NCBI RefSeq assembly: GCF_000336935.1
Contig: NZ_AOME01000054.1
Location: forward strand, 106,770 to 170,769
Direction of reading: 5' to 3'
Source of the DNA: Halococcus salifodinae DSM 8989
Lineage (GTDB): Archaea > Halobacteriota > Halobacteria > Halobacteriales > Halococcaceae
DNA: 64,000 nt
The notes beneath the pieces are model-generated. The model was not told where the DNA came from. It saw nothing but the letters and a program-made list of their open reading frames with translations, and ran no database searches. A program made the position numbers and the translations under genes. This document shows positions 9,314 through 57,852 of the stretch, one piece after another (within the stretch, counting starts at the first letter, position 1; every line of letters starts with the position of its first letter).

Positions 9314-9837
9314 TCTTGTTCCTCCGCTCGTTCGGGATGCAGTTCGTCCGCGATCGGACTCGTCTCGTCGAATCCCACGAGATCCTCCTCGCTCACGTCG
9401 ACTTTCCGCGAGGGCGTCGTTACCCGCGCGCCGTCGACGACGATGTGTCCATGAGAAACGAACTGACGGGCCTGCTGGACCGTGTTCGCGAGGCCTGTGC
9501 GGTAGACGATGGTCTGGAGCCGGCGTTCGAGCACGTCCGTGACTTCGAGGCTCAACACGTCGTCGAGCCCGTCGGTTTCGTCGAGAATGCCGAGCCGTCG
9601 GAGCCGCGCGAGGAACGGTTCGCCCTCGCGTTCGGCAGCGTCGACATCGCCCTGAGCGTCGCCGAGTAGTCGTCGCGCCTCGCGGCGGAACCCGCGAAGT
9701 TCGGACTGCGCTCTCCACAGCTCCTCTTTGTTCTTCAGGCCGTAGCGCCCGACGAGGTTCGACTCCTCAGAAATGCGCTCGCCCTGGTACGGATGATTCG
9801 GCGTCTCGTAGGCCTTGGTGTTGGATCCGAGTGCCAT
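9310..9837 (-). CDS. rps4: 30S ribosomal protein uS4
   Basis: Small-subunit protein S4, 175 aa. It begins [21 protein letters not shown] and includes an S4 RNA-binding domain ([17 protein letters not shown] ... [18 protein letters not shown]) with an acidic C-terminal tail. It directly follows rps13 and overlaps rps11. Confidence 0.97.
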
Positions 9838-10356
9838 CTATTCGCCCTCCGCTTCCTCTTCCATCTCTTCCTGGATGGCTTCGACGTTCACGCCGATCGT
9901 CCCTTCCGAGCGGCCGGTGGACTTGGTGCGCTGGCCACGGACCTTCTGGCCGCGCTCGTGGCGGACGCCCTTGTACGAACTGATCATCTGCATGCGGTTG
10001 ATGTCCTGCTGACGAGTCAGCGAGAGGTCGTTGCCGACCTCGTGGGTGGTCTCGCCGGTGAAGTAATCGGCCGGGCGGTTGGTGAGCCACGCCGGCACGT
10101 CCTCGGCGAACCCTTCGACGTGCTCGATGATCGAATCGACTGCGTCGTCGTCGAGTCGACCGAGCGTCGCCGATCGGTCGACCTCCGCCTCCGCCGCGAT
10201 GATGCGAGCGGCCCGCCGTCCGACACCGTTCATGCCGGTCAGCGCCCGCTCGACGCTTTTCGTCCCGTCGAGGTCGGTCTGGCCGATTCGGACGAAGTAG
10301 CGGATGTCCTCCTCCTCTTCGTCCTCGGCCGGTGTGTCTGGGTCTTCTGCGCTCAT
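9838..10356 (-). CDS. rps13: 30S ribosomal protein uS13
   Basis: Small-subunit protein S13, 172 aa. After an acidic N-terminus the core begins DIRYFVRIGQTDLDGTKSVERAL and ends with SYKGVRHERGQKVRGQRTKSTGR, the basic segment contacting the P-site, followed by an acidic haloarchaeal tail. It is the first protein gene after tRNA-Ser; its stop abuts the rps4 ATG. Confidence 0.97.
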   Translation of the reverse strand: MSAEDPDTPAEDEEEEDIRYFVRIGQTDLDGTKSVERALTGMNGVGRRAARIIAAEAEVDRSATLGRLDDDAVDSIIEHVEGFAEDVPAWLTNRPADYFTGETTHEVGNDLSLTRQQDINRMQMISSYKGVRHERGQKVRGQRTKSTGRSEGTIGVNVEAIQEEMEEEAEGE

Positions 10357-10372
10357 ATGCTGTGGTTCGGAG

Positions 10373-10457
10373 CGTCGTGGCTGGGATTCGAACCCAGGAG
10401 GCTGTGCGCCACAGAGTTAGCAACCCTGCGCCTTGGGCCAGGCTTGGCTACCACGAC
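10373..10457 (-). tRNA. tRNA-Ser (anticodon GCT)
   Basis: An 85-nt class II tRNA on the minus strand. Acceptor stem GTCGTGG pairs with CCACGAC, and the discriminator is G as in serine tRNAs. The anticodon stem CAGGG/CTCTG encloses loop TTGCTAA, anticodon GCT (reads AGC/AGU). A long variable arm and the T-arm CTGGGTTCGAATCCCAG are clear. It lies immediately upstream of rps13. Confidence 0.95.
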
Positions 10458-10532
10458 CCACGCTGTTAGTCTCGCTCTCTCGAACTCGGGGCCGACCCCC
10501 TGCAGTACGTGTTTCGGACTAATTCGACGCGG

Positions 10533-10540
10533 GTATTTAA
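10533..10540 (-). promoter_or_regulatory. TATA-like element upstream of tRNA-Ser/rps13
   Basis: On the minus strand the sequence TTAAATAC lies about 75 bp upstream of the mature tRNA-Ser 5' end. It is the only AT-rich octamer in a GC-rich region and is the likely promoter of the tRNA-Ser/rps13-rps4-rps11-rpoD transcript. Confidence 0.4.
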
Positions 10541-10707
10541 CCCCAACGAAACCCGGGTCGGGATCGGGAACCGGCGCTGCGGCGGGTGCCCAACCATCCA
10601 CCGACGCTCCACCAGCGGCCAGCCATCCACCACGCACCGTCGAGCCGCCGTCTTCGATCGATCGGCGGGTTCCCAACCCTTATCGCTCGGGCGGAGCTAC
10701 CCTGGCC

Positions 10708-11775
10708 ATGAACGAGGACGACGTGCGATCGCTGCTTCGCGGCGTCGAGGACCCCGATCTCGGTGACAATATCGTTTCGCTCGGCCTGGTCAACGACATC
10801 GAAATGCGGGAAGGAGTCGCCCACGTCTCGCTCGCGCTCGGCGCGCCCTACTCCCCGAACGAGACCGCGATCGCGGCCGAGGTGCGCGAGGTGCTGAGCG
10901 AGGAGGGGATCGAGTGTGAACTCACCGCGAACGTCGACCGGCCGGCCGAGGGAGATGTCCTTCCCGACGTCAAGAACGTCATCGCGGTCGCCTCGGGCAA
11001 GGGCGGAGTTGGGAAATCCACTGTCGCCGTGAATCTCGCCGCCGGCCTCTCGCAACTGGGCGCGCGCGTGGGACTGTTCGATGCCGACGTGTACGGCCCG
11101 AACGTCCCGCGGATGGTCGACGCCGACGAGCGGCCCCAGGCCACCGCCGAAGAGCAAATCATCCCGCCGGAGAAGTACGGCATGAAGCTGATGAGCATGG
11201 ACTTTCTGACTGGTGAGGACGATCCCGTGATCTGGCGCGGTCCGATGGTCCACAAGCTCATCACCCAACTGTTCGAGGACGTCGAGTGGGGATCGCTCGA
11301 TTACATGGTGATCGACCTTCCGCCGGGAACGGGCGACACCCAGCTCACCCTCCTCCAGACCGTGCCGATCGCGGGCGCAGTGATCGTGACCACACCCCAG
11401 GAGGTCGCCGTCGACGACGCCAAGAAGGGCCTGGAGATGTTCGGCAAACACGAGACGCCCGTGTTGGGGATCGTCGAGAACATGAGCGGCTTTCGGTGTC
11501 CCGACTGCGGCTCCGAGCACGCGCTCTTCGGGGAGGGTGGCGGCGAGGCGTTCGCCGACGAGGTCGAGATGCCGTTCCTCGGCGAACTCCCGCTCGATCC
11601 ACGCGTCAGGGAAGGTGGCGACGATGGCGCACCGATCGTGCTCGACGACGGCGAGACTGGCGACGCGTTCCGACAGTTCACTGAACGGACCGCGAACAAC
11701 GTCGGAATCGTCCACCGCCAGCGGCTGAGCAACGGCCGCCAGGGCGAGGAACCGGCACCGGATCCTTCGTCGTAG
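10708..11775 (+). CDS. apbC: Mrp/NBP35-type Fe-S cluster carrier ATPase
   Basis: P-loop ATPase that assembles or transfers Fe-S clusters to apo-proteins in the cytoplasm, 355 aa. Residues 1-85 form a MIP18 (DUF59) domain (VRSLLRGVEDPDLGDNIVSLGLV). The deviant Walker A VASGKGGVGKSTVAVNLA follows, then LFDADVYGPNVPRM, MVIDLPPGTGDTQLTL and a CPDCG motif suited to a bridging cluster. The ATG at 10708 is chosen because the DUF59 domain begins directly after it; the long open frame upstream is antisense to tRNA-Ser/rps13. Confidence 0.93.
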   Translation: MNEDDVRSLLRGVEDPDLGDNIVSLGLVNDIEMREGVAHVSLALGAPYSPNETAIAAEVREVLSEEGIECELTANVDRPAEGDVLPDVKNVIAVASGKGGVGKSTVAVNLAAGLSQLGARVGLFDADVYGPNVPRMVDADERPQATAEEQIIPPEKYGMKLMSMDFLTGEDDPVIWRGPMVHKLITQLFEDVEWGSLDYMVIDLPPGTGDTQLTLLQTVPIAGAVIVTTPQEVAVDDAKKGLEMFGKHETPVLGIVENMSGFRCPDCGSEHALFGEGGGEAFADEVEMPFLGELPLDPRVREGGDDGAPIVLDDGETGDAFRQFTERTANNVGIVHRQRLSNGRQGEEPAPDPSS

Positions 11776-12116: not shown

Positions 12117-13268
12117 CTACCGATACGACTCGGTCGCCGCGTCGATCCAGTCGAGGCTGTGTTCCGGGAGCAGCCCGTCGTTATAAAAGGAGACACGCTC
12201 GACGCCGGCGTCGGCGAGGCCGTCCACGACGTCGACGAGCGCCGCTCGGTTCTCGATCGCTGGATGGCCCGCGAGGACGCCGGCGTGAACCGGCGTGTCA
12301 GTGAGTGATCGGGCTGTACGAACGCAATCGGTGATCTCTGCTCGATCCGATCCGTATGCGAGGGCTACGTGGTGATCGAGATCGGCCGCGAGTCGGTCGG
12401 GATCGGCCCCGTACTTCCACGCGTTCTCCGGTGCGAGGTTCGGGAGGTAGTACCCGAGATCCGCGTTGGCTTCCTGGCGAAGATCGGCGAACACGTCTGC
12501 AAGGGTTTCGCAGCGAACCGCCACGTACGACCGGACTGCCTGGTGGTGCATGAGCCAGGCGGCGACGTCGATGTCCGATGAGCGCTTCCCTGCTGCAATG
12601 GCGTCGAGGGTCTCGACACACTGCTCCCGCGCTCGCTCGACGTCGACACCGGCGTCGGCCGCGTTCGCTCGACACGCATCACAGAAACAGAGTCCGAACA
12701 GGAACTCGCCGAGATCTCCGAGGTCGACGTGGATCTTCTGGTGGTGCCAGCCGAACCCGGTTCCATAGAAGTAATCGAACTGTTCGAGCTCGATCCGTTC
12801 GAACGGGGCTCGTGTGTCGAGGTCCGCAACGAGCGTCGTGAGATACCGCTGCACCGCCAGCTTCGACGGACAGAGCCCGAAGACGAGTCGATCCCCGTAC
12901 GGGTTTTCGATCGCAAGGTCGCGGTTTGCCATCCCGAGCCGTGAGTTGTGACAGCCGACGGTCCACGAGTTGAGTGCGAGCGAGGTGTCGGCGATCCCGT
13001 CGACGATCTCGGCCAGCCAATCGTCCTCACTCATCTGCTCGTTCGGTACGGGTTCGAGCCGGCCGTACTCCCCGTCCGGCTGGAAGTACGCACTCGCCTG
13101 CGCGAAGAACGTGCTGCGGCCCGGCTGGCGGGGGTGGTACGTCTGGACTGCGTGGTAGTTCGTCGCGAGCGTGATCTCGTCGATCCCGATGCGTTCCAAT
13201 CGCCTCGCAGCCCGTTCGACACCCTCGTCCACGAGGCTCCACGGGTACGCCCAGATCGCGAACTCCAT
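12117..13268 (-). CDS. Hypothetical TIM-barrel-like protein with CxCxxC motif (possible glycoside hydrolase)
   Basis: A 383-aa protein of unrecognised family, with no signal peptide, so probably cytoplasmic. Alternating hydrophobic strands (MEFAIWAYPW, EITLATNYHAVQ, FGLCFCDACRANA, NADLGYYLPNL, VHAGVLAG, GVERVSFYNDGLL) suggest a TIM barrel. The CFCDAC motif after a strand is seen in several putative glycoside hydrolase families. Two genes away lies a sugar ABC transporter, and a second barrel-like protein with a CRCEHC motif (18864-19865) lies on its other side. Glycan hydrolysis or sugar metabolism is inference only. Confidence 0.6.
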   Translation of the reverse strand: MEFAIWAYPWSLVDEGVERAARRLERIGIDEITLATNYHAVQTYHPRQPGRSTFFAQASAYFQPDGEYGRLEPVPNEQMSEDDWLAEIVDGIADTSLALNSWTVGCHNSRLGMANRDLAIENPYGDRLVFGLCPSKLAVQRYLTTLVADLDTRAPFERIELEQFDYFYGTGFGWHHQKIHVDLGDLGEFLFGLCFCDACRANAADAGVDVERAREQCVETLDAIAAGKRSSDIDVAAWLMHHQAVRSYVAVRCETLADVFADLRQEANADLGYYLPNLAPENAWKYGADPDRLAADLDHHVALAYGSDRAEITDCVRTARSLTDTPVHAGVLAGHPAIENRAALVDVVDGLADAGVERVSFYNDGLLPEHSLDWIDAATESYR

Positions 13269-13348
13269 ACTCGACCGACCACCGGGGCGTACATAGATGC
13301 TCGGTGTGGTGTCGCCGGAGATCGATCGTCCACTACACCGGAGCCGGG

Positions 13349-14194
13349 CTACTCCCGTGTCGGTGCCTCGTCCGCATCGTAGACGCGCTCGTGGAACGAT
13401 TGATCGAGACCGGCGGTGAGACCGCCGTCGACCACGAGGTTCGACCCGGTGACGAACGACGATCGTTCCGATGCGAGAAACAGGGTCGCGTCAGCAACTT
13501 CGTCGGGCCGTCCGAACCGGCCGAGCGGGTACTGGTCGAGCCACTCCTCGCGCGCACTCCGCTCGTCGTCCCGATCGCCCACGTCCATCTCGTCAGCACG
13601 AGCCTCGGTCTCGATCGTACCGGGAGAAACGACGTTCGCCCGGATGCCGTGTCGACCGTACTGGGCGGCGATCAGCCGACAGAGCGAGAGGATCCCGCCC
13701 TTGGCCGCCGTGTAGCCAGTCAAGCCGATACCGGTGAGCGCGTTCGCGGTGCCCATGAACACGATCGAGCCACCGCCGCCGTCGACCATGACCGGCAGCG
13801 CCGCCTTGACCGTCCGGAACTGACCTGTGAGATTCACATCCAGGTTCGCCTCGAAGACGTCCTCGTCGATGCGATGGAGAGCATCGTCGTCGATCATCCC
13901 GCCGGCGTTCGGCACGAGGACATCGATGCCGCCGAACCGTTCCACGGCCGCCTCGATGAGCGAGTCCACGTCCCCGGAATCGGTGACATCACAGACGACG
14001 CCGTGTGCGCGGCCGGGCGTGTCGGCGTCGGTGATCGCGTTGGCGACCGCCTGAATTTCCGTGTTCGAGCGCGAACAGAGGACGAGGTTTGCGCCGGCCT
14101 CGGCCAACCGCTCGGCGATCGCTCGGCCGATCCCCGACGATGCGCCGGTGACGACGGCCGTCTCGTTCGAAAGCACGCCTTCGATGTCGGTCAT
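13349..14194 (-). CDS. Short-chain dehydrogenase/reductase
   Basis: Classical SDR of 281 aa. The cofactor motif TGASSGIG lies near residue 18; an acidic Asp (VVCDVTDSGD) precedes the NAG motif (VLVPNAGGM). The catalytic pattern is atypical: the usual Ser region reads IVFMGTANALTG and is followed by GYTAAKGG, which holds the Y and K. It probably oxidises or reduces a sugar or sugar alcohol with NAD(P). It is divergent from the sugar ABC transporter operon and co-directional with the TIM-barrel gene downstream. Confidence 0.85.
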   Translation of the reverse strand: MTDIEGVLSNETAVVTGASSGIGRAIAERLAEAGANLVLCSRSNTEIQAVANAITDADTPGRAHGVVCDVTDSGDVDSLIEAAVERFGGIDVLVPNAGGMIDDDALHRIDEDVFEANLDVNLTGQFRTVKAALPVMVDGGGGSIVFMGTANALTGIGLTGYTAAKGGILSLCRLIAAQYGRHGIRANVVSPGTIETEARADEMDVGDRDDERSAREEWLDQYPLGRFGRPDEVADATLFLASERSSFVTGSNLVVDGGLTAGLDQSFHERVYDADEAPTRE

Positions 14195-14391
14195 TGGTCG
14201 ATACCGAGAGCGCCACCCGGCAGAATCTTAACTGTACCGCCGACGGGTCGCGATAGTACTGTTCGTCGACGGCCCGGCACTATCATCGAGTCGAAACGAA
14301 ACGACTCGGTAGTGCACGCTACTGACGATCGGCCGGACAGATGGTCCGTTCTCCCGCCGACAAACGTTACGCGGGCTACAGTATAACCAAG

Positions 14392-14399
14392 TTTTATAT
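14392..14399 (+). promoter_or_regulatory. TATA box of sugar ABC transporter operon
   Basis: TTTTATAT centred about 28 bp upstream of the ATG at 14424, the spacing expected for a leaderless haloarchaeal transcript. This supports the ATG at 14424 over the GTG at 14406. Confidence 0.6.
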
Positions 14400-14423
14400 G
14401 CGTGGGTGAGTTTCACAGCCGTG

Positions 14424-15752
14424 ATGTCTGATAGAACAGCGGGTAGAGCCGAACGTAGCATCGACCGGCGGGAGATGCTTGGCGCTCTCGGCGCCGGCGG
14501 TGCGGTGGTCATCACTGGCTGCCTCGGTGACATCGGTGGCGGTGGCAACGGTAGTGACGGGAACGGTAGTGGTGGAGGCGATGGCAGCAACTCGCTCCAG
14601 TTCCTCACGATGGGTGTCGGCGAGAACATCAAGCAGTTCTTCACGGAGAACAACAAGAAATTCGAGGAGGAAAACGACGTCTCGCTCGAGTTCACGAGCG
14701 TGACGTGGGATAACGCCCAGCAGACGGTCAACAACCGCGTCGACGGCGACAAGGCACCGGACGTCGGTCGCTGGCCGGCTCGGTGGATCCCACAGCTCGT
14801 AGGCAAGGAGGCGTTGGTCCCGCTCGACGACATGATGGGTGGCGACTTCGGCGGGAAGTTCTACGAGGGAATGGCGGAGGGCTGTAAGTACGAGGGATCG
14901 TACTACGGGGCCCCGTGGGCCGCCTCGAACAAGTGTTTCTACTACAACAAGGACGTCTTCGAGTCGGCAGGTCTCGATCCAGAGAACCCCTCGCTCGACA
15001 CGTGGGACGACATGCTTGCGGCGGCCCAGACGGTCACCGAGAAGACCGACACGCCGGCGCTCGGCCTCGCGGGTGCCGACGCGATCGAGACCGGCTCCCA
15101 GTACTACCACTACCACTGGTCGCACGGTGCCGACCTCGTCGACGATGATGGGAAACCCGTGGTCAACTCCGACGCGGGCGTCGAGGCGCTGACGTTCTTC
15201 TCGGATCTGCATCTCGAGCACGGCGTGACCCAGTCCTCGCCGCTGTCCTCGACCCGTCAGGACATCCGTCAGCTGTTCGAGGGTGGCGATCTCGGGATGG
15301 TGATCGCTCACGTCTACACGGGGATCAACATCGACGATAGCGATACGGACTTCGGCTACGGCATCGTTCAGGTGCCGAAGGGGCCAACAGGCCGCTTCAG
15401 CCTGAACACCATCGACGCCGTATCGGTGTTCGCCCAGACGGAGGTCGAGGACGCTGCGAAGGACCTCCTCCGGTTTTACTTCGACGAGGATCGTCATTTC
15501 CAGTACGCGAAAAACAAGGGGTTCATGCCCACGATCGAGGCGGTCGGCGAGCGCGATTACTTCCAAGACTCGAAGAACTGGGCTCCGTACATCGAGGCGG
15601 GACAGTACGCACGTGCCCGGCCGAAGCTCACGAACTTCAACGAGTTCAACAGCCGGGTGGTCCAGGCGATTCAGGAGGCGCTGGGCGACCAGAAATCGCC
15701 GCAGAAGGCGCTCGACGACGCCCAGAGCGATCTCGAAGAACTGACCGGGTGA
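14424..15752 (+). CDS. Sugar ABC transporter substrate-binding lipoprotein
   Basis: Family 1 extracellular solute-binding protein (MalE-like), 442 aa from the ATG. It has a Tat signal (DRREMLGALGAGGAVVITGC) ending in a lipobox cysteine, then a Gly/Asn/Ser-rich linker. The mature domain has features of carbohydrate binders (APDVGRWPARWIPQL, APWAASNKCFYYNKDVFESAGLDP, LGLAGADAIETG). It would deliver an oligosaccharide to the two permeases that follow. Substrate is unknown; the neighbouring chitinases make chito-oligosaccharides possible. Confidence 0.93.
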   Translation: MSDRTAGRAERSIDRREMLGALGAGGAVVITGCLGDIGGGGNGSDGNGSGGGDGSNSLQFLTMGVGENIKQFFTENNKKFEEENDVSLEFTSVTWDNAQQTVNNRVDGDKAPDVGRWPARWIPQLVGKEALVPLDDMMGGDFGGKFYEGMAEGCKYEGSYYGAPWAASNKCFYYNKDVFESAGLDPENPSLDTWDDMLAAAQTVTEKTDTPALGLAGADAIETGSQYYHYHWSHGADLVDDDGKPVVNSDAGVEALTFFSDLHLEHGVTQSSPLSSTRQDIRQLFEGGDLGMVIAHVYTGINIDDSDTDFGYGIVQVPKGPTGRFSLNTIDAVSVFAQTEVEDAAKDLLRFYFDEDRHFQYAKNKGFMPTIEAVGERDYFQDSKNWAPYIEAGQYARARPKLTNFNEFNSRVVQAIQEALGDQKSPQKALDDAQSDLEELTG

Positions 15753-15762
15753 GGACGATCAC

Positions 15763-16701
15763 ATGGGATTCGCCGAAGACTACACCGAACCTACGTCGGA
15801 TTCGCGTCTCGAACGGGGGCTCGATCACCTCCAGCAGAACAGTCGCGCGTATCTGCTGATCGCGCCGACGATCGTGTTCTTGCTGGCGGTCATCGGCTAT
15901 CCGATCCTGGAGACGTTCCGGCTGTCGCTGTTCCGCGCTCCCTCCGAGACCAGCATCGAGACGTTCGTCGGTCTCCAGAACTACGTCGAGATTCTCAACA
16001 GCGATGTCTTCTATCAGCTACTCTGGCAGACCGGCCGGTGGGTGGTCGTCGGAGTCGCGGCCAAGACGCTGCTCGGCCTCCTCATTGCCGTCCATCTCAA
16101 CGGCGATATCGCCGGCCGGAAGTTCTTCCGGACTGCCTTCCTCGTCCCGTGGGGGATCCCCTACGCGATTTCGGCGGTGGTGTTCACGTGGATCGAACAT
16201 CCACAGTACGGCTACTTCAACGCCATCCTGATCAAACTGGGCGTGATCGAGGAAGGGATCGGCATCCTCGGAAGCCCGGAAATCGCGTGGATCGGGACGG
16301 TCGCCGCGGACGTCTGGATCGGGACGCCGTTCATGGCGATCATCCTGCTCGCCGGCCTCCAGTCGATCCCGGAGGACCTCTACGAGGCCGCCGCGGTCGA
16401 CGGGGCCGAGCGGTGGCACCAGTTCCGCCACATCACGCTGCCCCAGCTCAAAGGCGTGATCCTGATCGCCACGTTGCTCTCGACGATCTGGACGTTCGTC
16501 TCGTTCGACGTGATCTGGACGATGACCGGCGGTGGGCCGATCGACACGACCCACACCCTCGTGACGTGGATCTACCAGACCGGGCTCGAAAACGGCAATC
16601 TCGGGATGGGTGCCGCCTACAGCGTCATCGGCTTTCTCCTCCTGATGGCGTTCGCCGTCGTCTATCTCCGGGTCTACACCAGCGGGGGTGAGGAGCTGTG
16701 A
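15763..16701 (+). CDS. Sugar ABC transporter permease (MalF-like)
   Basis: Integral membrane permease of the CUT1 sugar family, 312 aa. The first membrane segment is AYLLIAPTIVFLLAVIGYPI. The cytoplasmic EAA loop (EAAAVDGAERWHQFRHITLPQLKG) that docks with the ATPase lies near residue 210. It starts 10 bp after the binding-protein stop and nearly abuts the second permease. Confidence 0.93.
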   Translation: MGFAEDYTEPTSDSRLERGLDHLQQNSRAYLLIAPTIVFLLAVIGYPILETFRLSLFRAPSETSIETFVGLQNYVEILNSDVFYQLLWQTGRWVVVGVAAKTLLGLLIAVHLNGDIAGRKFFRTAFLVPWGIPYAISAVVFTWIEHPQYGYFNAILIKLGVIEEGIGILGSPEIAWIGTVAADVWIGTPFMAIILLAGLQSIPEDLYEAAAVDGAERWHQFRHITLPQLKGVILIATLLSTIWTFVSFDVIWTMTGGGPIDTTHTLVTWIYQTGLENGNLGMGAAYSVIGFLLLMAFAVVYLRVYTSGGEEL

Positions 16702-16703
16702 CG

Positions 16704-17543
16704 ATGGCCGGCCAGGACCGAGGACGACTGCGGAAAGTGCGTCTCTACGGCGTGTTGCTCGTGCTGTTCGGGGTCATGATGTTCCCGTTCTACACGATGT
16801 TTTCGAGTACGCTCAAGCCCGAGTCGGGGCTGTTCGCCTCCCCTGCAACCCTCGTCCCGACCGAGCCCACGATCCAGAGCTATCTCGCAGTGTGGGGCCA
16901 GACCGACGTGCTGCTCTGGATCGCGAACAGCTTCCTGATCTCGGGCGGGACCGTCGTCCTGACGCTGCTGCTCGCGATCCCGGCCGCGTACTCGTGTGCG
17001 CGCAACGACTTCGTGGGCAAGCGGACGTTCCTGCTGGCCGTGCTGGTGGGGCAGATGTTCGCACCGGTGGTGTTGATCGTCGGGCTGTTCGATGTCGTCA
17101 CCGGCTTCGGGCTGTTCAACAGCTATCTCGCGGTCATCATCCCGGCCGCGGCGTTCACGCTTCCGTTCAACGTCTGGATGCTGTACGGCTACTTCGGGAC
17201 GATCCCGGTCTCCCTGGAGGAGTCGGCGCGGATCGACGGTGCGAGCCAACTCCAGATCCTGACGAAGATCGTGTTGCCGCTGACGAAGCCGGCGCTCGTC
17301 GCCAGCATCACCTACACGTTCCTCTACGCGTGGAATCGCCTGCTGTTCGTACTGACCTTCCTCACCGACGCGGGCAAGTACAACGTCCCACGGGGCGTGT
17401 TCTCGATGGTCGGCGCGCTCCAGACCGACTGGCGGATGATGCTCACGGTGTCGGTCATCGGCATCGTCCCTCTCCTGATCCTGTTCGCCTTCCTCGAAGA
17501 GTACATCGTCGCTGGGATGACCAGCGGTGCGGTGAAGGACTGA
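16704..17543 (+). CDS. Sugar ABC transporter permease (MalG-like)
   Basis: Second CUT1-type permease, about 279 aa. It has six predicted membrane segments, beginning LYGVLLVLFGVMMFPFYTMF, and an EAA loop (ESARIDGASQLQILTKIVLPLTKPAL). Two starts are possible: GTG 16698, overlapping the previous gene by 4 bp, or ATG 16704. A GAGGAG element 8 bp before the ATG favours 16704. The gene converges on the ATPase gene coded on the other strand. Confidence 0.92.
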   Translation: MAGQDRGRLRKVRLYGVLLVLFGVMMFPFYTMFSSTLKPESGLFASPATLVPTEPTIQSYLAVWGQTDVLLWIANSFLISGGTVVLTLLLAIPAAYSCARNDFVGKRTFLLAVLVGQMFAPVVLIVGLFDVVTGFGLFNSYLAVIIPAAAFTLPFNVWMLYGYFGTIPVSLEESARIDGASQLQILTKIVLPLTKPALVASITYTFLYAWNRLLFVLTFLTDAGKYNVPRGVFSMVGALQTDWRMMLTVSVIGIVPLLILFAFLEEYIVAGMTSGAVKD

Positions 17544-17570
17544 TCCACGTCGATCGTCGGCGAGGGCGTT

Positions 17571-18671
17571 TCAGGCCGTCGTCACCGTCTTCGGTTCGTC
17601 GTCGAGCGGGACACGTTCGCCGTCCTCGCCGAAGAAATGCACGTCGGCCGGATCGAAACCGAGCGAGATCGTGCTGCCCGGCTCGGGGTGGTACTCGCTG
17701 TCGACGCGTGCGGTGATCTCGCCGCTGCCCTCGGCGGGCTGGAGATAGATGAAGTTGTCAGCTCCCATCGGTTCCACGACATCGACCACGGTATCGATAT
17801 GGCCGTCACCGGTGGCGATGGCGAGGTCTTCCGGGCGGACACCGAGCGTGTATTCGCCGGCCGGGAGGTCGATCGGAAGGTTCGTCTCGAACCCCGTTCC
17901 CGCGAGCGCTACGCCGTCGTCGGTCGGTGTCGCGGTCACGTCGAAGAAGTTCATGCTCGGCGAGCCGATGAAGCCGGCGACGAACTCGTTGTTCGGCCTG
18001 TCGTAGCACGTCTTGGGTGCGGCCACTTGCTGGAGTTCGCCGTCGTCGAGGATGGCGATCCGGTCGCCCATCGTCATCGCTTCGGTCTGGTCGTGCGTGA
18101 CGTAGATCGTCGTCACGCCCAGCTCTTCCTGGATGCGCTGGAGCTCGGTCCGCATCTGGGTTCGCAGCTTCGCGTCGAGATTGCTGAGTGGTTCGTCCAT
18201 CAGGAACACGTCGGGATCGCGGACGATCGCGCGGCCGAGCGCGACGCGCTGTTGCTGGCCGCCAGAGAGCTGTTTGGGCAACTGATCGAGCAGCTCCGGG
18301 ATCTCGAGGAGCTCGGCCGCTTCCTCGACACGCGATTCGATCTCGCCGTCGTCGTGCTCGGCGAGGCGGAGCCCGAAGCTCATGTTCTCCCGCACGGTCA
18401 TGTGGGGGTACAGCGCGTAGTTCTGGAACACCATCGCGATGTCGCGGTCCTGAGGCCGGACGTCGTTGACGACCCGATCCCCGATCTCGATCTCGCCCGC
18501 GGTGGCGGTTTCGAGACCGGCGATCATCCGTAGCGTCGTCGACTTGCCGCAGCCCGAGGGGCCGACCATGACGAGGAACTCCCCGTCCTCGACCGCGAGA
18601 TCGACGTCCTCGACCGCGAGGAGATCGTCGTCGTACACCTTTGCGACCCCCGAGAGATCGACATTACTCAT
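17571..18671 (-). CDS. Sugar ABC transporter ATP-binding protein (MalK/UgpC-like)
   Basis: ATPase subunit, 366 aa, that would energise the CUT1 permeases encoded convergently at 15763-17543. The Walker A is GPSGCGKST, the signature LSGGQQQRVAL, the Walker B DVFLMDEPLSNLDAKLR and the switch histidine lies in VTHDQTEAM. The C-terminal ~120 residues are the TOBE/MalK regulatory domain. ATG at 18669-18671 is preferred to the upstream GTG at 18686. Confidence 0.93.
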   Translation of the reverse strand: MSNVDLSGVAKVYDDDLLAVEDVDLAVEDGEFLVMVGPSGCGKSTTLRMIAGLETATAGEIEIGDRVVNDVRPQDRDIAMVFQNYALYPHMTVRENMSFGLRLAEHDDGEIESRVEEAAELLEIPELLDQLPKQLSGGQQQRVALGRAIVRDPDVFLMDEPLSNLDAKLRTQMRTELQRIQEELGVTTIYVTHDQTEAMTMGDRIAILDDGELQQVAAPKTCYDRPNNEFVAGFIGSPSMNFFDVTATPTDDGVALAGTGFETNLPIDLPAGEYTLGVRPEDLAIATGDGHIDTVVDVVEPMGADNFIYLQPAEGSGEITARVDSEYHPEPGSTISLGFDPADVHFFGEDGERVPLDDEPKTVTTA

Positions 18672-18863
18672 GACAGGTCGTCTCACCCTGCGGAGTTGGG
18701 CAGCAAAAAACTATCGGCGGACGAGACTCCCTCGTGACAGTTTGCTTCACTCGGTCGAGCGTCGTTCGTGCTGACGCCTTCACGTTCGTTGGACCGAAAC
18801 CCCTCGTTCCACCGGGATTGCCGCTACCTCGTGGTTTTTGCCCCTCCCCTCGGTGGGAGTGGT

Positions 18864-19865
18864 ATGGAGACCGGAACGAGCTACTTCGGCGTCCGCGACG
18901 TAGATCACGTCACGAGCGATCTCGATCGATTCGCCGACGAGGGTCTCGATGCGATCCTCCACACGTTCAGTGAGCGCGATCGGGAGTATTATACCGGGAC
19001 GATGGGAGACATCATCGAGGCGAGCCACGACCGTGGGTTCGAGACCTACGTCAATCCGTGGTCGGTCGGCCGGGTGTTCGGTGGCGAAGCGCTCTCGGCG
19101 TTCATCGGCAAGCATCCCGATGCGTGCCAGGTGCTCTCGACGGGCGAGCGCATCCCCGCAGCCTGCTTCAACGCGCCCGAGTTCCGGGAGTATATGCGGG
19201 GCTGGACTCGTGACGCCGCCGGAATCGGAGCCGACGTGCTGTTCTGGGACGAACCCCACTGGTTCATCGCGAGCTGGCACGAGGAGGAGTACCCCGAGGA
19301 CGCGTGGGCCTGCCGATGCGAGCACTGCCAGGCCGCCTACGAGGAGGAGTACGGCGAGTCGATGCCTGACGAACAGACCGACCGGGTCACTGCGTTCCGC
19401 GAGGACGCCTTACTCGACTTCCTCGACGAGATGATGACGCTCACCCACAAGGAGGGCGCAGAGAACGCGGTCTGTCTCCTGCCGAGCGAAGATGCAGATC
19501 ACGGGCTCTCCGACTGGGAACGCCTCGCCGCGAACGATGCGCTCGACGTGCTGGCGACCGATCCCTACTGGGCGATCCACGCTCCCGACGAGGCGGGGGA
19601 GTTCGTCGGTTACTTCACCGATCTCGTGGAGTCGCTCGCCGAGGAGTACGACAAGCGCAGCCAGATCTGGATCCAGGGGTTCCGGCTCGACGGCAGCGAC
19701 GCCACCATCGAGGACGTCCACACCGCGACCCGGACCGTCGCCGACAGCGACGTCGACAGCGTGTTCATGTGGGGCTACGACGCCTGCCGGATCATCTCCG
19801 ATATCGCGTGCGAGGACCCCGAGGCGGTCTGGAACGCGTACATCGACGAGCTTCCGGCGGAGTAA
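18864..19865 (+). CDS. Hypothetical TIM-barrel-like protein with CxCxxC motif (possible glycoside hydrolase)
   Basis: A 333-aa protein, no signal peptide, family not recognised by name. Barrel-like strands are seen at FGVRDVDHV, GLDAILHTF, GFETYVNPW, ADVLFWDEPHWF, NAVCLLPS, LATDPYWAI, IWIQGF and SVFMWGYDA. The acidic residues of VLFWDEPHW sit where many retaining glycosidases place the acid/base. The downstream CRCEHCQAAYEEEYG motif parallels CFCDAC of the gene at 12117. It is divergent from the sugar transporter ATPase gene, so a role with the imported oligosaccharide is inferred. Confidence 0.65.
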   Translation: METGTSYFGVRDVDHVTSDLDRFADEGLDAILHTFSERDREYYTGTMGDIIEASHDRGFETYVNPWSVGRVFGGEALSAFIGKHPDACQVLSTGERIPAACFNAPEFREYMRGWTRDAAGIGADVLFWDEPHWFIASWHEEEYPEDAWACRCEHCQAAYEEEYGESMPDEQTDRVTAFREDALLDFLDEMMTLTHKEGAENAVCLLPSEDADHGLSDWERLAANDALDVLATDPYWAIHAPDEAGEFVGYFTDLVESLAEEYDKRSQIWIQGFRLDGSDATIEDVHTATRTVADSDVDSVFMWGYDACRIISDIACEDPEAVWNAYIDELPAE

Positions 19866-19930: not shown

Positions 19931-21556
19931 CTAGTTCCCGTAGCGATTCTTCATATCGAGCGTGGCGACCAGCTCGGTGTTCTGGTCGATGCTGGACATC
20001 TGTTCACGGAACTCGACGTGGCAGGTGTCGAGCATCACGTCGACCAGGTCGGTGAGCGGCCAGTCGTACTGGCCGGGGCCCGTGACGTTGTGGTAGGTCA
20101 TCGAGAACTTCTGATTGGGGTAGCACGTCCTGTACATGTACGGGTTGTTGTGCTGTGCGATACGGACCCCGTACGCCGAGAGCGGTGCGTCGGTTCCCTG
20201 GAACGGACCTGGTTTGTCCGCTGGCGGTAGGTTTACCTCGATGACGTCGCGCTGTGGGTGGCCCACCGAGAAGTTCTTCCGTTGTGCGTTGTCGTAGGAG
20301 AACTGATCCAGACCCCGTCCGTCTTTCGACGCACCGACCCACCAGACGACCGCGCCATCGATCAGCAGCGGCACGTTGGTGGTGTTTTCGAATACCAGCG
20401 ACTGGTCGAAGATCCAGCCATCGCCGTGGAGTTCGGCAGTTCCCTTTAACGGCGCGTTCGCGGTGAATCCACTCCCGAGCGACGCACCCGTGACCGGATG
20501 GTTCTTCTTCGTAGTGGCGTCGACGATCGGATTGCCGGCGTTTTCGTACTGGCTGTCGCTGACACCGCTGCTCCAGTCGGACCGCTGGGACTGGTGGTAG
20601 ACGTCGTCGAACTGTGATCCACTCGGCCACGCGTCCTGCACGAACACCGGTGGATCGTTCGTTGCCGAAACTGGTCCCGTGTCGGCCGTGAGGCCACCAT
20701 CCCGTCCGCTCCCGTCGTTGAACGGGATCGGTTCGGTCTTCTCGGGCAGCGACGTCAGCCACGGCATGAGCCGCGCGGTGGTCTCCCGTGGCACCCCGTC
20801 GGCGGTGAACCGCTTGACCAACCCGAGCCCCCGGCCACCGAGCGCAGCGAGTTGCATCGAACCGTCGTCAGCGTTGTTCTGGATCGCCTTGAGATCCACG
20901 CCGTGCTCGCTGGCGTCGGCGGGCAGCTCGTTTTTGAGCAGCCCGGGAACGCCGCCTTCGGTCTCCTTCGGGTAGAAGTCCTTGTCGTACGCCGAGTAGA
21001 ACTCCGAGAGGGTGGTGTTGGCAGAGACGTTGCCTCCGCCGCTGGTACCGCCGACGCTGACCGTCGTCGATGTGGCGGCGCTCGCACCGGCGTCGTCGGT
21101 CACCGTCAGCGTCACGGTGTAGCTCCCGTTCGACGAGTACGCGTGCGTGGCGGTCTTGCCTGTCGCGCTTGCGCCGTCGCCGAAAGTCCACTCGTAGGAC
21201 GCGATCGAACCGTCCGCATCCGACGAGCCCGATGCGTCGAACGTGACCGACGCACCCGGGTCGGGCGCGGACGGACTCGCCGTGAACGAGGCCGTCGGCC
21301 CTCCGTTCACGGGTCCACACGCGCCCTCACGGGTCCAGACGTTTTGGCTGGCGGCGGGTGCGGTGCCTTTGGTCCACCATTCGGCGGTCCAGAGCGCCCC
21401 CTCGTGGGTTACCCGATCACCGCCCGAATAGGCGGTCCCCGAGTCGTACGCCGGGACGCCGCTGCAGTCGGCCGCCGCTGCGATTCCACTGAGGCCGTAC
21501 GCCGCGATGGGTACTGTCGATACCTTCTGGAGCAGGCTTCGTCGTGTGTGTTTCAT
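19931..21556 (-). CDS. Secreted chitin-binding/PKD protein with unknown C-terminal domain
   Basis: A 541-aa exported protein. The N-terminus [21 protein letters not shown] ends in a hydrophobic segment with AAAAD, a Tat-type signal. Next is a CBM5/12-type chitin-binding module ([20 protein letters not shown] ... [11 protein letters not shown]), a PKD domain (about 75-165) and then about 340 residues from [13 protein letters not shown] to the end. That last part has no GH18 DxDxE motif and I do not recognise it; it holds a pair of well-separated cysteines (YRTCYPNQ and LDTCHVEF) and aromatic-rich strands. It lies at the 3' end of a five-gene chitin-degradation cluster. It could be a new polysaccharide-active or binding domain. 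Confidence 0.8.
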
Positions 21557-21713
21557 CGTTGTTTCGTCGTGTCGTCTTTCGTTTCGTGTGCGATCCGGCG
21601 GCAAGTGATGGGATCGGGGATCGTCGTGGCGACTTCCTCGGCGAGCCATCGGGAGCCAACCGGGGAAATCGAGGTCGTCCTCGATCCCGTTCGAGCGGCT
21701 CAGTCCCCGTCAG

Positions 21714-22823
21714 TTACCCGAACTGCGTGAAGATGTCCGAGAACTTGCCGTTGGTATCCTTGTTCAGTGCCCACGGCGCGATGCTGTACATGCCCTTTCG
21801 CTCGGCGTAATCGACCAGTTGCGTCGCGTCCTGGGTCGATATCTGGCTGAGCAGGGGCGTCACGCCCACCATCGACCAGATCGCGCTCCGGGACTTCCCG
21901 GTGTAGACCGTCTCCAGGAAGTCCACAGTACCTTCGAGCGACTGGGAGATCGAACCGAAGTTCTCGTCGCCCTGGAAGTACATCGTCATCGGCTGGACGT
22001 AATCGAGGCCGACGCCTTTCTTTTCGGCGTCCTTGATCCACGTCTTGCCACGCGAGTGGCCGTAACTCACGATGCCATCCGCGGTCGCAGAGACCGTGAA
22101 GCCGACCGTGACGTTCGGTCGCTCCGCTTTGAGCATCGCCAGCGCCTCGTTGCGCATCCCGTAGAGCGTCTCGGAGCGCTGGTCGGCGTTCTCGTCGTCG
22201 ATGTCGAGCGTGCTGACGCCGAGCGTGTCGAGGATGTTGGCGTAGGCGTTTTTGAGTTCGGTGGCGCTGCTCGCGTCCCGAGCCACGACACGCCCGTCCG
22301 CGCCGCCGATCGAGACTCGCACCTCGACGCCGTTGTTCTGAAGCGCTTGGATCGTGTCGGTCTGTGTCGAGAGTGGCTTCTGGCTGCACGAGCCCGTGTT
22401 GCAGCCCGAGAGCCACCCGGCGTTCACCTTGCCGTCGTCCGTGGCGTCGCCGAGGACCGTCAGGTAGACGTGATCGAGGTTCCGGCTCGTCACACCGTCG
22501 ACCGGATTCATCCACGTACCCGCGTAGAGGGAGTAAATCCCACCGGCGCTCCCGCCACCGCCGCCTCCGCCTCCGCCGCGGCACGTCCCCTCGCGGGTCC
22601 AGACGCTCTTGCTTTCGGCGGGCGTGCTCCCACGAGTCCACCACTCGGCGGTCCAGAGTGATCCGTCGTGGACCACCTGATCGCCGCCCGAGTAGGCGGT
22701 ATCGGCGTTCCACTGTGGCACGCCGCTACAGTCAGTCGCCGCCGAAACGGTTCCGCTCGCGCCGATCGCCAGCGCCGAGAGTCCCGCTGCCTTGCGCAGT
22801 ACGTTCCGTCGTGTATGGTTCAT
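21714..22823 (-). CDS. Secreted GH18 chitinase with one chitin-binding module
   Basis: A 369-aa exported enzyme. It has a Tat signal ([21 protein letters not shown]), a CBM5/12 module (QWNADTAYSGGDQVV ... AEWWTRGSTPA), a poly-glycine linker of nine glycines and a short GH18 barrel. The catalytic motif is VSTLDIDDE with Asp207, Asp209 and the proton donor Glu211; the first Asp of the DxxDxDxE consensus is replaced by Ser. VRVSIGGADGR is the conserved SxGG strand. Lacking the insertion domain of larger GH18 enzymes, it is likely an endo-acting form. No PKD domain is present. Confidence 0.88.
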   Translation of the reverse strand: MNHTRRNVLRKAAGLSALAIGASGTVSAATDCSGVPQWNADTAYSGGDQVVHDGSLWTAEWWTRGSTPAESKSVWTREGTCRGGGGGGGGGSAGGIYSLYAGTWMNPVDGVTSRNLDHVYLTVLGDATDDGKVNAGWLSGCNTGSCSQKPLSTQTDTIQALQNNGVEVRVSIGGADGRVVARDASSATELKNAYANILDTLGVSTLDIDDENADQRSETLYGMRNEALAMLKAERPNVTVGFTVSATADGIVSYGHSRGKTWIKDAEKKGVGLDYVQPMTMYFQGDENFGSISQSLEGTVDFLETVYTGKSRSAIWSMVGVTPLLSQISTQDATQLVDYAERKGMYSIAPWALNKDTNGKFSDIFTQFG

Positions 22824-23069
22824 GGTTCGTGTTCGTGGTGTCGTCTTCCGCATCGTTCGTCGAATGCTGTGCGCCGAGCACACGCCCGTCGCGACGAGTC
22901 CGTTGGATCGAAACGCCGCTCGAATCGGCAATCCCGATCCTCGATCGTCCGTCGTTCGTCACGGGTGGTGGCACACCCCGCTGGATCGGCGGGCACGTCG
23001 ACCGCCGATCGGGCGTGTCGCGTCGTGTGTGGTTCATCGGTGGATCGATCGACGACCGCCGGCCAGCGA

Positions 23070-25220
23070 TCAGATCGTGGCGAGGATCGCGTCGAGCAGC
23101 GTCTCGTTCCAGTCCTGGGAGAGCTCCCAGAACATCACGCCCTGCATGCCGCGCTTCTTCGCGAACTTGACCTTCTCCTCGATCGCCTGCTCGTCGTCGT
23201 AGCTGATGATCGTGTTCTCGGCTTCGTTGACGAGGTACGGCACCGAGCCGGGCTGGTGACGGTACTTCGTCCATCCACTCGTGTTCTGATAGTTCGCTTC
23301 CAGATCGCCGAAGTCGAACGCGCCCGTCGGATCCGCACCCTTTTCGAGCTGGTCGTGCCACGTCCCCTTCGGCAGTCCGCTGTAGCTGCCGTAGAGTTCG
23401 GTGCCGTTGAACCCGCGTCCGTAGAACGGCAGCCCGAGCACGAGCTCGTTGTGGGCGGCGGGCTCGGCGGGCGGGTACTTCCACTGGCCGGGCCAGTAGC
23501 CCGTCTCGCCGTGATTGCCTGCGTACAGCTTGTCCACGGAGTACTCGACGTAGTACTGAGCGGTGTAGGTCTCGCCGTACTGGGAGTTCTCGGTCGGATG
23601 GCCCGAGCCGTACAGCGGCGCGTTCAGTCCGGCGACGTCCATCCACGATCCGGTGAAGTCGTACGCCATGATCATGGTGTAGTCACAGATCTCGCCGATC
23701 TTGCCGTGACGGAGCCCACCCGCGTTCCAGTCCGAGCCACCGTTGGCGACCGAGAGGTAGTACTTCTGACCGTCTTCCTTCCCGGCGGCGTCGAGCGCGT
23801 CGCGCAGCGCCTGCAGCAGCTTGATGTGGTTCTCGTAGTCCGCGTTGCGACCACACTGGCACTTGCCCTGGGAGCTACCGGGATGCTCCCAGTCGATGTC
23901 GACGCCGTCGAGGTCGTACTTCCGGACGATCTCGACGCTCCGGTCGGCGAACGTCTGGCGCTTGCTCTGGCTCGCCGCGATGTCGCTGAACCCCTCCGAG
24001 TCGGCCCACCCGCCGATCGAGACCTTCACGCGAGTGTCCGACGCCGGACCCGATTTGAGCTTCTTGAACCGCTTCAGGTTCTTCCGATCCTGTTCGCTCA
24101 TGATCGTGGGGACGGCCTTCTTCGCGTCGACGCCGAGGAAGGCGTACTGCACGTCCGTGACCTTGCTCCACGGGATGTCCTTGGGGTAGTAGTCGTACTC
24201 CGGCGTGGCCTTCCAGCCGGGGTAGTAACCGATGACTTTGAACTCGTCCGAGGGACCGGTCCCGACCGTCACATCGCTCGTGGTGGTCGCACTCGCACCC
24301 GCGCCGTCCGTGACGGTCAGCGAGACCGTGTAGGTCCCCTTCGAGCTGTAGGTGTGACTCACAGTCTTCCCCGAGCCCGTCGACCCGTCGCCGAAATCCC
24401 ATTCGTAGCTGCTGATCGAGCCGTCGGGGTCCGACGAGCCCGACGCGTCGAACGTGGCCGCCTTTCCGGGCGCGGGCATCGATGGATCGACCGCAAACGA
24501 CGCAGTCGGCACCTCGTTGGGATCGCCCACCGTGAGCGTCGAAGTCGTGGATGCGGTCTTGCCGCCATCGTCGGTCACCGTCAGTTCGACGGTGTACTTC
24601 CCGACGGCGTCGTAGGTGTGGCTCGCGGTCTTTCCGGTCCCCGAGGTGCCGTCGCCGAAGGTCCACTCGTAGGACGCGATCGAGCCGTCGTCCGAGGAGC
24701 CCGACGCGTCGAACGTGACCGACGCGCCCGGGCCGGGTGCGGATGGACTCACCGTGAACGAGACGATCGGCATTTCGTTGGCGGGCCCGCAGTCGCCCTG
24801 TTTGGTCCAGACGTTCTCGCTGGCGGCGGGTGCAGTCCCTTTGGTCCACCATTCGGCGCTCCAAAGTGACCCCTCGTAGGTCACCTGATCGCCGCCCGAG
24901 TAGGCAGTGTTCGCATCGTACGCCGAAACGCCGCTGCAGTCAGTGGCGCTCGCCTCACTGCCGGAGCCACCGTTGGCGCTACAGTCGCCCTGTTTGGTCC
25001 AGGCGTTCTCACTCGCGGCGGGTGCGGTACCCTTGGTCCACCATTCGGCGGTCCAGAGCGATCCGTCGTAGGTCACCTGATCACCACCCGAATAGGCGGT
25101 CCCCGAGTCGTACGCCGGGATGCCGCTGCAGTCGGCCGCCGCTGCGATCCCACTGAGGCCGTATGCCGCGATGGGAACTGTCGATACTTTTCGCAACAGA
25201 TCGCGTCGTGAATCGTTCAT
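23070..25220 (-). CDS. Secreted multidomain GH18 chitinase (2 CBM, 2 PKD)
   Basis: A 716-aa exported chitinase. Tat signal ([21 protein letters not shown]), two CBM5/12 modules (about 30-75 and 88-130, each ending [23 protein letters not shown]), two PKD domains (about 135-305) and a C-terminal GH18 domain. The catalytic motif is DGVDIDWEHPG with proton donor Glu445; VKVSIGGWAD, MIMAYDFTGSW and VLGLPFYGRGF complete the family signature. The CBM and PKD modules are near-duplicates of those in neighbouring genes. It hydrolyses chitin outside the cell. Confidence 0.95.
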   Translation of the reverse strand: MNDSRRDLLRKVSTVPIAAYGLSGIAAAADCSGIPAYDSGTAYSGGDQVTYDGSLWTAEWWTKGTAPAASENAWTKQGDCSANGGSGSEASATDCSGVSAYDANTAYSGGDQVTYEGSLWSAEWWTKGTAPAASENVWTKQGDCGPANEMPIVSFTVSPSAPGPGASVTFDASGSSDDGSIASYEWTFGDGTSGTGKTASHTYDAVGKYTVELTVTDDGGKTASTTSTLTVGDPNEVPTASFAVDPSMPAPGKAATFDASGSSDPDGSISSYEWDFGDGSTGSGKTVSHTYSSKGTYTVSLTVTDGAGASATTTSDVTVGTGPSDEFKVIGYYPGWKATPEYDYYPKDIPWSKVTDVQYAFLGVDAKKAVPTIMSEQDRKNLKRFKKLKSGPASDTRVKVSIGGWADSEGFSDIAASQSKRQTFADRSVEIVRKYDLDGVDIDWEHPGSSQGKCQCGRNADYENHIKLLQALRDALDAAGKEDGQKYYLSVANGGSDWNAGGLRHGKIGEICDYTMIMAYDFTGSWMDVAGLNAPLYGSGHPTENSQYGETYTAQYYVEYSVDKLYAGNHGETGYWPGQWKYPPAEPAAHNELVLGLPFYGRGFNGTELYGSYSGLPKGTWHDQLEKGADPTGAFDFGDLEANYQNTSGWTKYRHQPGSVPYLVNEAENTIISYDDEQAIEEKVKFAKKRGMQGVMFWELSQDWNETLLDAILATI

Positions 25221-25269
25221 GATTCGTGGTTCGTGTTTTGTGGTTGTCGTGGTTGGTTGGCGAGCGATA

Positions 25270-28861: not shown

Positions 28862-28968
28862 GGTTGTGGTCGATCGAGACGGCGGCATCGGATCGGTCGT
28901 CGTCCGATTCACGATCGCCGAACTCGCATCCGGTCCGCTTGCTTGCCCCCGTCATCCTTCGTACACGG

Positions 28969-57836: not shown

Positions 57837-57852
57837 GAGTGAATTTCGGGCC

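Follow-up and report, generated by a model that had tools for sequence, protein, structure and literature searches.

A candidate cytosolic beta-N-acetylglucosaminidase and its distant sister protein beside a sugar importer of Halococcus salifodinae

What is the role of two proteins with a CxCxxC motif that lie on either side of a sugar importer in Halococcus salifodinae DSM 8989? The stretch of DNA that raises this question, herein called the window, comprises 64,000 nucleotides (contig NZ_AOME01000054.1, positions 106,770 to 170,769 of the forward strand). The protein encoded at 12117–13268 is named fam1 throughout and the one at 18864–19865 fam2. The chances are judged about even that fam2 acts in the cytosol as a beta-N-acetylglucosaminidase on imported disaccharides of N-acetylglucosamine (GlcNAc), which is the most economical reading of its homology, fold, conservation and gene contexts; from these, we infer reaction and substrate. 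The genes concerned are as follows.

12117–13268, minus strand: fam1, 383 amino acids, a predicted glycoside hydrolase (GH)-type barrel and distant homologue of fam2.
13349–14194, minus strand: SDR dehydrogenase (PF13561, 2.2e-63), directly upstream of fam1.
14406–15752, plus strand: CUT1 sugar-binding protein (PF01547, 3.2e-39).
15763–16701, plus strand: CUT1 permease A (PF00528).
16698–17543, plus strand: CUT1 permease B (PF00528).
17571–18686, minus strand: UgpC/MalK-type ATPase (NF008653, 459 bits, cut-off 432).
18864–19865, plus strand: fam2, 333 amino acids, a GH42-like barrel and, from its model and contexts, a predicted cytosolic beta-N-acetylglucosaminidase.

Both open reading frames are real and carry the cysteine trio described in the original prediction (CFCDAC in fam1, CRCEHC in fam2), and Pfam and NCBIfam confirm that they flank a CUT1 importer and an SDR dehydrogenase. 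The lack of a signal peptide holds for both proteins, in which the first barrel strand is predicted right at the start of the sequence. Neither of them, searched as a single sequence, finds a family in Pfam, NCBIfam or the PDB.

The two proteins had been called unrelated-looking, a description that fails in profile comparison. BLASTP finds no match between them; profile–profile comparison joins them with P 1.3e-5 (30 fam1 rows against 13 fam2 rows) and, with 54 fam2 rows, P 9.2e-6 or, in global mode, P 2.1e-8, each P value referring to a single comparison. The score is 48, and still 40 when the Cys columns are masked; none of 30 column shuffles scores above 22.9, and the reversed profile reaches 21.3. 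On the P value of 9.2e-6 and these controls, the view of fam1 and fam2 as unrelated was rejected. They are distant homologues and would form one new superfamily branch of GH42-related barrels.

Three alignments underlie these profiles. A1 holds fam1 (30 of 31 places used). A2 holds fam2 from 13 of 16 full-length places, one of them (L031) being the window itself; L040, L041 and L045 were dropped for frame or stop and the fragments L047 and L048 excluded. A3 holds fam2 of the window together with 53 sequences from 56 loci, L125, L131 and L132 being dropped as short. Since the 56 loci were found via the patterns FWDEPHW and LHTFSERD, conservation inside these two stretches is partly selected; the CxCxxC residues of fam2 lie outside them, and the pair D129–E130 is also invariant in all 13 rows of A2, which was gathered without FWDEPHW. 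The conserved sites map to the window as follows.

12672–12689, minus strand: CFCDAC of fam1, residues 194–199, with C194, F195, C196 and C199 invariant in 30/30 rows.
12783–12785, minus strand: E162 of fam1 at the end of predicted strand 4, a candidate catalytic residue, invariant in 30/30 rows.
12870–12872, minus strand: fourth cysteine of fam1, C133, invariant in 30/30 rows.
19164–19166, plus strand: fourth cysteine of fam2, C101, invariant in 54/54 rows.
19248–19253, plus strand: D129–E130 of fam2 at the end of strand 4, the proposed catalytic dyad, present in 54/54 rows.
19311–19328, plus strand: CRCEHC of fam2, residues 150–155, with C150, C152 and C155 kept in 54/54 rows.

The fourth cysteine, upstream of the trio in both families, had been overlooked. 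The profile alignment pairs C133 with C101 and CFCDAC with CRCEHC, and the spacing from the first Cys to the invariant Glu (E162 in fam1, E130 in fam2) is 29 residues in both; the global alignment sets E162 on D129, one residue off E130. A chance motif is ruled out by its invariance in two families. The original prediction had left the choice between a metal and a disulfide site, of which the disulfide was rejected as unlikely in a cytosolic protein. By sequence, the four cysteines have the layout of the structural zinc site known from GH42, and the predicted metal is probably zinc. In the GH42 enzyme Gal42, the zinc ligands are Cys113, 153, 155 and 158, and Glu148 is the acid/base; the zinc-site cysteines are absent from part of GH42 (PMC8573354). 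The invariant carboxylates of fam2 among the 54 rows are E37, D39, D129, E130 and D233, with D306 being variable. At position 271 on strand 7 stands Q in 46 rows and P in eight, and residues 265–275 hold no conserved acid in the 54 rows, strand 7 being judged by strand position rather than by superposed coordinates. fam1 conserves H39, H107 and H176 alongside E162.

Structure prediction bears out the anticipated TIM barrel well for fam2 and weakly for fam1. The fam2 model, built from 54 sequences, has a predicted local distance difference test score (pLDDT) of 93.5 and a predicted template modelling score of 0.92. In the comparison with GH structures that had been proposed, run with VIA for fam2, the best match is GH42 (1kwg, Z 26.9, root-mean-square deviation (rmsd) 2.7, 304 aligned), followed by the exo-glucosaminidase GlmA (5gsl, Z 24.8, rmsd 3.1, 318 aligned), PgaB of GH153 (4p7q, Z 24.4, rmsd 3.2, 298 aligned) and Cwp19 (5oq2, Z 24.1, rmsd 3.3, 284 aligned). 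Because all 50 VIA matches shown have a Z of 23 or more, the fold indicates a GH-type barrel rather than one family. Foldseek alone places beta-amylases on top (3voc, E 2.3e-11), GH42 (6lvw) seventh and TIM-barrel epimerases further down. According to the model, the 333 amino acids stop with the barrel, meaning that the trimerisation and C-terminal domains of GH42 are lacking. The fam1 model from three sequences is poor (pLDDT 49), with eight predicted strands; its matches are GH164 (Z 14.7, rmsd 6.4, 247 aligned) and, near Z 12, GH42, PgaB, GH20C and Cwp19. Given this model, the matches are a hint only; like the strands, they are consistent with a barrel but are no proof of one.

Against three haloarchaeal GH42 sequences, fam2 reaches P 8e-5 and fam1 P 0.0016. 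With the Cys columns masked, the fam2 score drops to 26.4, barely above the unmasked shuffles (maximum 23.0); hence, this link owes most to structure and to the motif of the metal site. Global alignment of A3 with GH42 by hhalign gave nothing sensible. Neither protein matches PF02449 (GH42) above the cut-off, although one of 13 fam2 members comes to E 0.04, and PF00728 (GH20) matches neither of them nor 13 fam2 relatives. Profile searches of the PDB with A1, A2 and A3 returned weak or unconvincing matches only, such as that between A1 and 4s1a (E 2.7e-4, 86 columns). Among the 30 fam1 relatives, 11 weakly match GHL10 (PF02638; best E 0.0044, under the cut-off); fam1 of the window has no PF02638 match.

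How would such a barrel act? The proposal is that fam2 is exo-acting and splits disaccharides with GlcNAc at the non-reducing end. Herein, E130 would serve as acid/base, whereas D129 would orient the 2-acetamido group of the substrate; since fam2 lacks the strand-7 Glu that GH42 uses as nucleophile, this group is proposed to take that role, as it does in GH20. Both barrels would be stiffened by the Cys4 (probably zinc) site. The reading of fam2 as a beta-N-acetylglucosaminidase is drawn from the Asp–Glu pair, the loss of Glu on strand 7 and the absence of GH20 (PF00728) from all 14 fam2 genomes of a co-occurrence set of 146 relatives, in which kinship was handled by genus count alone. It is further drawn from the gene contexts of fam2 (chitinases, MurQ–AnmK, NagA–NagB), which all share the terminal GlcNAc of an imported disaccharide. 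The likely substrate would be diacetylchitobiose in chitin users, H. salifodinae among them, and GlcNAc-(anhydro)MurNAc (MurNAc, N-acetylmuramic acid) in bacterial MurQ/AnmK operons.

These contexts emerged from a scan of a genome collection of 84,980 species, in which 56 fam2 loci were found, 27 haloarchaeal and 29 bacterial. The bacterial hosts belong to Actinomycetota, Chloroflexota, Paenibacillus, Thermotogota, Gemmatimonadota and Eisenbacteria; a branch with support 100/99 separates the haloarchaeal rows from the others. MurQ is MurNAc-6-phosphate etherase, and 11 of the 29 bacterial loci encode an in-frame fam2–MurQ fusion (L102, L104, L107, L109, L112, L113, L115–L118 and L123; the MurQ part is broken in L113). 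Such fusions occur in actinobacterial metagenome-assembled genomes (MAGs). The one in L102, at 9317–11221, scores 304 bits against TIGR00274 (MurQ; cut-off 302), and SIS/GKRP_SIS_N was found in eight of ten sequences scanned. A separate MurQ directly follows fam2 in L106, L110 (340 bits against NF003915, cut-off 168), L119, L125 and L131, and CUT1–fam2–MurQ–AnmK operons house bacterial fam2. Further neighbours in the bacterial loci are CUT1 permease B (19), GntR (15), SIS NagB (11), NagA (nine; 264 bits against TIGR00221 in L109, cut-off 226), AnmK (seven), NagK (three), NagZ (two) and NamZ (one); some reference proteins for these counts (MurQ, NagA, NagB, NagK, NamZ, GntR) were drawn from the counted loci. 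The haloarchaeal loci contain OppB (14), PIG-L (13), DgaE-like lyase (11), RidA (11), glucose dehydrogenase (eight), CUT1 permease B (eight), GH18 (six), AnmK (two) and fam1 (two), with MurQ in none. GH18 is present in 13 of the 14 fam2 genomes as opposed to 10 of the 132 genomes without fam2 (p 1.2e-11, or p 0.004 when counted by genus). In L120 and L121 (Mesoaciditogaceae), a putative GNAT-like acetyltransferase gene, recognised by reading the sequence, stands right after fam2.

The PIG-L deacetylase in nearly half of the haloarchaeal loci suggests another order of events, in which deacetylation comes first and fam2, in the manner of the Thermococcus and Pyrococcus enzyme GlmA, would take glucosamine (GlcN) off the GlcN–GlcNAc made by PIG-L. 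GlmA, a relative of GH35 and GH42 that breaks chitosan oligosaccharides down to glucosamine (PMC6566704), is indeed among the best structure matches of fam2. This order is nonetheless unlikely: PIG-L is found in none of the bacterial loci, which have MurQ, NagA and NagB-type genes in its place, and the Glu nucleophile of GlmA, which aligns with that of GH42 (PMC6566704), is missing from fam2. The in-frame fusion, for its part, would fit a muramidase of the MupG type that frees MurNAc or MurNAc-6-phosphate for the fused MurQ, with the copies in chitin islands repurposed; Staphylococcus aureus recovers MurNAc–GlcNAc via MurP and the 6-phospho-N-acetylmuramidase MupG (PMC6262408). We regard this as quite improbable, since the neighbouring AnmK would point to anhydroMurNAc arising after GlcNAc removal, since the fam2 genes of haloarchaeal chitin loci have no MurNAc gene nearby, and since searches of the window genome gave no match to AnmK or NamZ. 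Nor did that genome yield a match to GH20 (PF00728).

The beta-N-acetylglucosaminidase reading is best followed in the window itself, where fam2 on the plus strand faces a row of GH18/CBM5/PKD genes and where genes for the later steps lie further on.

19931–21649, minus strand: CBM5/12 and PKD with a C-terminal part of ~370 residues without a Pfam family.
21714–22931, minus strand: CBM5/12 with weak GH18.
23070–25358, minus strand: GH18 chitinase with CBM5/12 and PKD (PF00704, 1.5e-67).
25270–26709, minus strand: CBM5/12 and PKD with weak GH18.
26807–28912, minus strand: GH18 chitinase with CBM5/12 and PKD (PF00704, 1.4e-66).
29492–30487: GNAT.
30599–31669, minus strand: glucose dehydrogenase family (PF16912, 4.8e-92).
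34746–35954, plus strand: DgaE-like pyridoxal phosphate-dependent ammonia lyase, a candidate glucosaminate lyase (TIGR01437, 2e-59; 201 bits, under the cut-off of 385).
35894–36739, plus strand: PIG-L/CE14-type N-deacetylase (PF02585, 1.4e-34), the true start being probably inside the open reading frame.
36788–37282, plus strand: RidA (TIGR00004, 143 bits, cut-off 106).
37457–38608, plus strand: galactonate dehydratase (NF010624, 567 bits, cut-off 311).
57715–60084, plus strand: GH3, with a C-terminal and an Fn3-like domain; searches of the genome gave no other GH3.

Secreted GH18 chitinases would release diacetylchitobiose, which the CUT1 importer would take up and fam2 would cleave. The PIG-L enzyme would then convert GlcNAc to GlcN, glucose dehydrogenase GlcN to glucosaminate, and the DgaE-like lyase with RidA glucosaminate to a 2-keto-3-deoxy acid; the run at 34746–38608 (DgaE-like lyase, PIG-L, RidA, galactonate dehydratase) is a likely oxidative glucosamine route. 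In this chitin island, reaction, substrate, metal and step order are all predicted. The two weak-GH18 proteins beside the two full chitinases are perhaps diverged or non-catalytic. The protein at 19931–21649 has relatives in the chitin clusters of Natrialba and Halobiforma (L079, L086), and a GlcNAc 2-epimerase family protein is also encoded in the window, beyond the chitinase row.

That the sole GH3 of the genome sits in this same window invites a different division of labour, namely that GH3 splits chitobiose and that fam1 and fam2 do otherwise, for example as isomerases or epimerases of a modified amino sugar or by opening it. In the Natrarchaeobius clusters, GH3 is read as a beta-N-acetylhexosaminidase (PMC12343721). 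TIM-barrel epimerases do appear in the lower Foldseek rows, and the conserved residues of fam1 include three His and a Glu. This division is rather unlikely: GH3 lies 38 kb from fam2, genome G049 has fam2 without any GH3, and GH42, GlmA, PgaB and Cwp19 rank above the epimerases for fam2. The C-terminal and Fn3-like domains of GH3, which we take to be of the beta-glucosidase type, count against it as well.

Several observations weigh against fam2 as a beta-N-acetylglucosaminidase with fam1 as its sister enzyme. The single GH3 could split chitobiose instead. No amino-sugar, murein or chitinase markers occur in the DNA fetched for seven of the 29 fam2 loci from bacteria, all five Eisenbacteria loci included, and for nine of the 27 from haloarchaea. 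More than half of the haloarchaeal loci (14 of 27) have an Opp-type (peptide) permease and not the expected CUT1. Some fam2 loci (L102, L103) also encode NagZ, which would make another glucosaminidase superfluous. Many bacterial loci are from related MAGs, so their counts are not independent, and G049 has fam2 without GH18. For fam1, the fold model is poor, as given above; H39, H107 and H176 with E162 could, judged from sequence, mean a metal-dependent isomerase or lyase; and the branch of the window, near fam1, is neither linked to AnmK (1 of 13; p 0.69) nor found in plainly amino-sugar contexts.

The idea of an intracellular glycosidase for the imported oligosaccharide is thus best supported for fam2, through its GH-type barrel, the chitin island and the MurQ/AnmK/NagA neighbours in bacteria. 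For fam1, homology and the NamZ/AnmK/NagZ neighbours of one branch speak for it; the poor fold model and the creatininase, mandelate-racemase and RidA contexts of its nearer relatives weaken the case. fam1 would be a sister of fam2 with a single conserved carboxylate (E162) in its active site, and its substrate would be an amino sugar, related or modified. What is argued for fam1 is superfamily membership and a general amino-sugar role; given H39, H107, H176 and E162, it may catalyse a different kind of reaction.

The two branches of fam1 differ in this respect. fam1 occurs in 29 of the 146 relatives, with the near branch (at least 49% identity, the window's own) in 13 and the far branch (~30%) in 17, G113 having both. 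AnmK and NamZ occur in 12 genomes each, the identical 12, all of which have far-branch fam1 as opposed to 5 of 134 others (p 5e-14; by genus, 6/6 vs 2/50, p 9e-7); fam2 is present in nine of these 12. Neighbours in the 18 far-branch regions are NamZ (11), Opp permease (11), AnmK, NagZ, serine hydrolase and creatininase family (nine each). In the 12 near-branch regions besides the window, CUT1, creatininase family, RidA, MR/MLE and SDR are found seven times each, and NamZ and AnmK never; the near branch, including fam1 of the window, therefore has the looser tie to amino sugars. Near fam1 is mildly linked to GH18 (6 of 13; p 0.007).

In Haloferax mediterranei and Haloarcula, the gene order is ugpC, creatininase, sugar-binding protein, two permeases, fam1, MR/MLE, SDR and RidA. 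A haloarchaeal plasmid operon ugpC–creatininase–CUT1–fam1–MR/MLE with SDR is conserved in L063, L064 and L067, with RidA in L063 and L064. Another 152 plasmid records have fam1 matches, 113 of them from Rhizobium. In the two alphaproteobacterial regions covered, of Rhizobium etli and Aureimonas (L065, L073), the neighbours of fam1 include an amidohydrolase, a gene of the amino-acid deaminase or alanine racemase type, and importers for sugars and amino acids, plus RidA in R. etli. Viral contigs, scanned with three fam1 proteins, gave no relatives.

Haloarchaeal loci with NamZ, NagZ, AnmK, serine hydrolase, an Opp importer and fam1 (L066, L070, L157–L167) apparently serve the scavenging of bacterial murein by archaea that have none themselves; in L070 (Haladaptatus), a GNAT gene adjoins AnmK. 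No MurQ was seen in these regions, no genome-wide MurQ search having been made. Taken together, it is possible, though only tentatively proposed, that fam1 and fam2 found new glycosidase families (a GH42-type zinc-braced barrel with GH20-style substrate-assisted catalysis) and that murein-less haloarchaea catabolise murein sugars. Within this joint proposal, the missing MurQ implies that the lactyl ether would be removed by another enzyme, for which fam1 is one candidate.

If these proposals are true, one barrel would have switched its catalytic strategy with the zinc site retained. The intracellular half of haloarchaeal chitin use is unsettled, its pathway being called hypothetical (PMC12343721), and fam2 is a concrete, directly assayable candidate for the disaccharide-splitting step. 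The natural fam2–MurQ fusion ties chitin use to the recycling of bacterial cell wall. Among the open-access papers that searches listed, no title or abstract opening describes fam1, fam2, the fusion or haloarchaeal murein-sugar use, which is weak evidence of novelty since most subscription journals lie outside the searched library.

Among known systems, GH42 (PF02449; 1kwg, 6lvw) is the closest. It shares with fam2 the barrel fold, a C-F-N-[SA]-P motif, the CxCxxC of the zinc site and the Glu after strand 4, and the four invariant cysteines of fam1 and fam2 stand at matching places. However, fam2 has Asp (54/54 rows) rather than Asn ahead of the strand-4 Glu and lacks the strand-7 Glu nucleophile, the trimer or C-terminal domain and a Pfam match, and fam1 has a single Glu instead of the Asn–Glu pair. 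With several defining features thus not found, a plain GH42 enzyme was rejected. GlmA (GH35; 5gsl, 6jow, 8oug) has the same barrel fold (Z 24–25) and acts in an archaeal chitin pathway (PMC6566704). In contrast to GlmA with its three domains and two catalytic Glu, fam2 is single-domain and half as long and has no strand-7 Glu; profile searches detected no sequence match between the two. PgaB, by its C-terminal domain (GH153), and Cwp19 (GHL10) resemble the fam2 barrel with Z ~24 and act on GlcNAc polymers or murein; they differ in being periplasmic or cell-wall proteins, and we know of no Cys4 site in either. Cwp19 is a lytic transglycosylase of murein (PMC6016235). The probable catalytic acid of PgaB, D474, coincides in superposition with D183 of DspB, a GH20 enzyme in which E184 is the partner of D183 (PMC5933820); fam2 holds both members of such a pair. 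fam2 thus resembles GH20 in the adjacent Asp–Glu ending strand 4 and in its amino-sugar contexts, and it differs in having no PF00728 match, a Cys4 site and a GH42-like layout. Finally, the Natrarchaeobius chitin clusters resemble the window in their gene set, with CBM5–PKD–GH18 chitinases, an ABC importer, CE14, GDH, DGA, GAD and IclR, and a hypothetical route leads from GlcNAc via GlcN to glucosaminate; in the parts of that account covered (PMC12343721), GH171 (NamZ) is listed among the enzymes without comment and fam1, fam2 and murein loci are not mentioned, whereas fam2 does occur in Natrarchaeobius (L077, L078).

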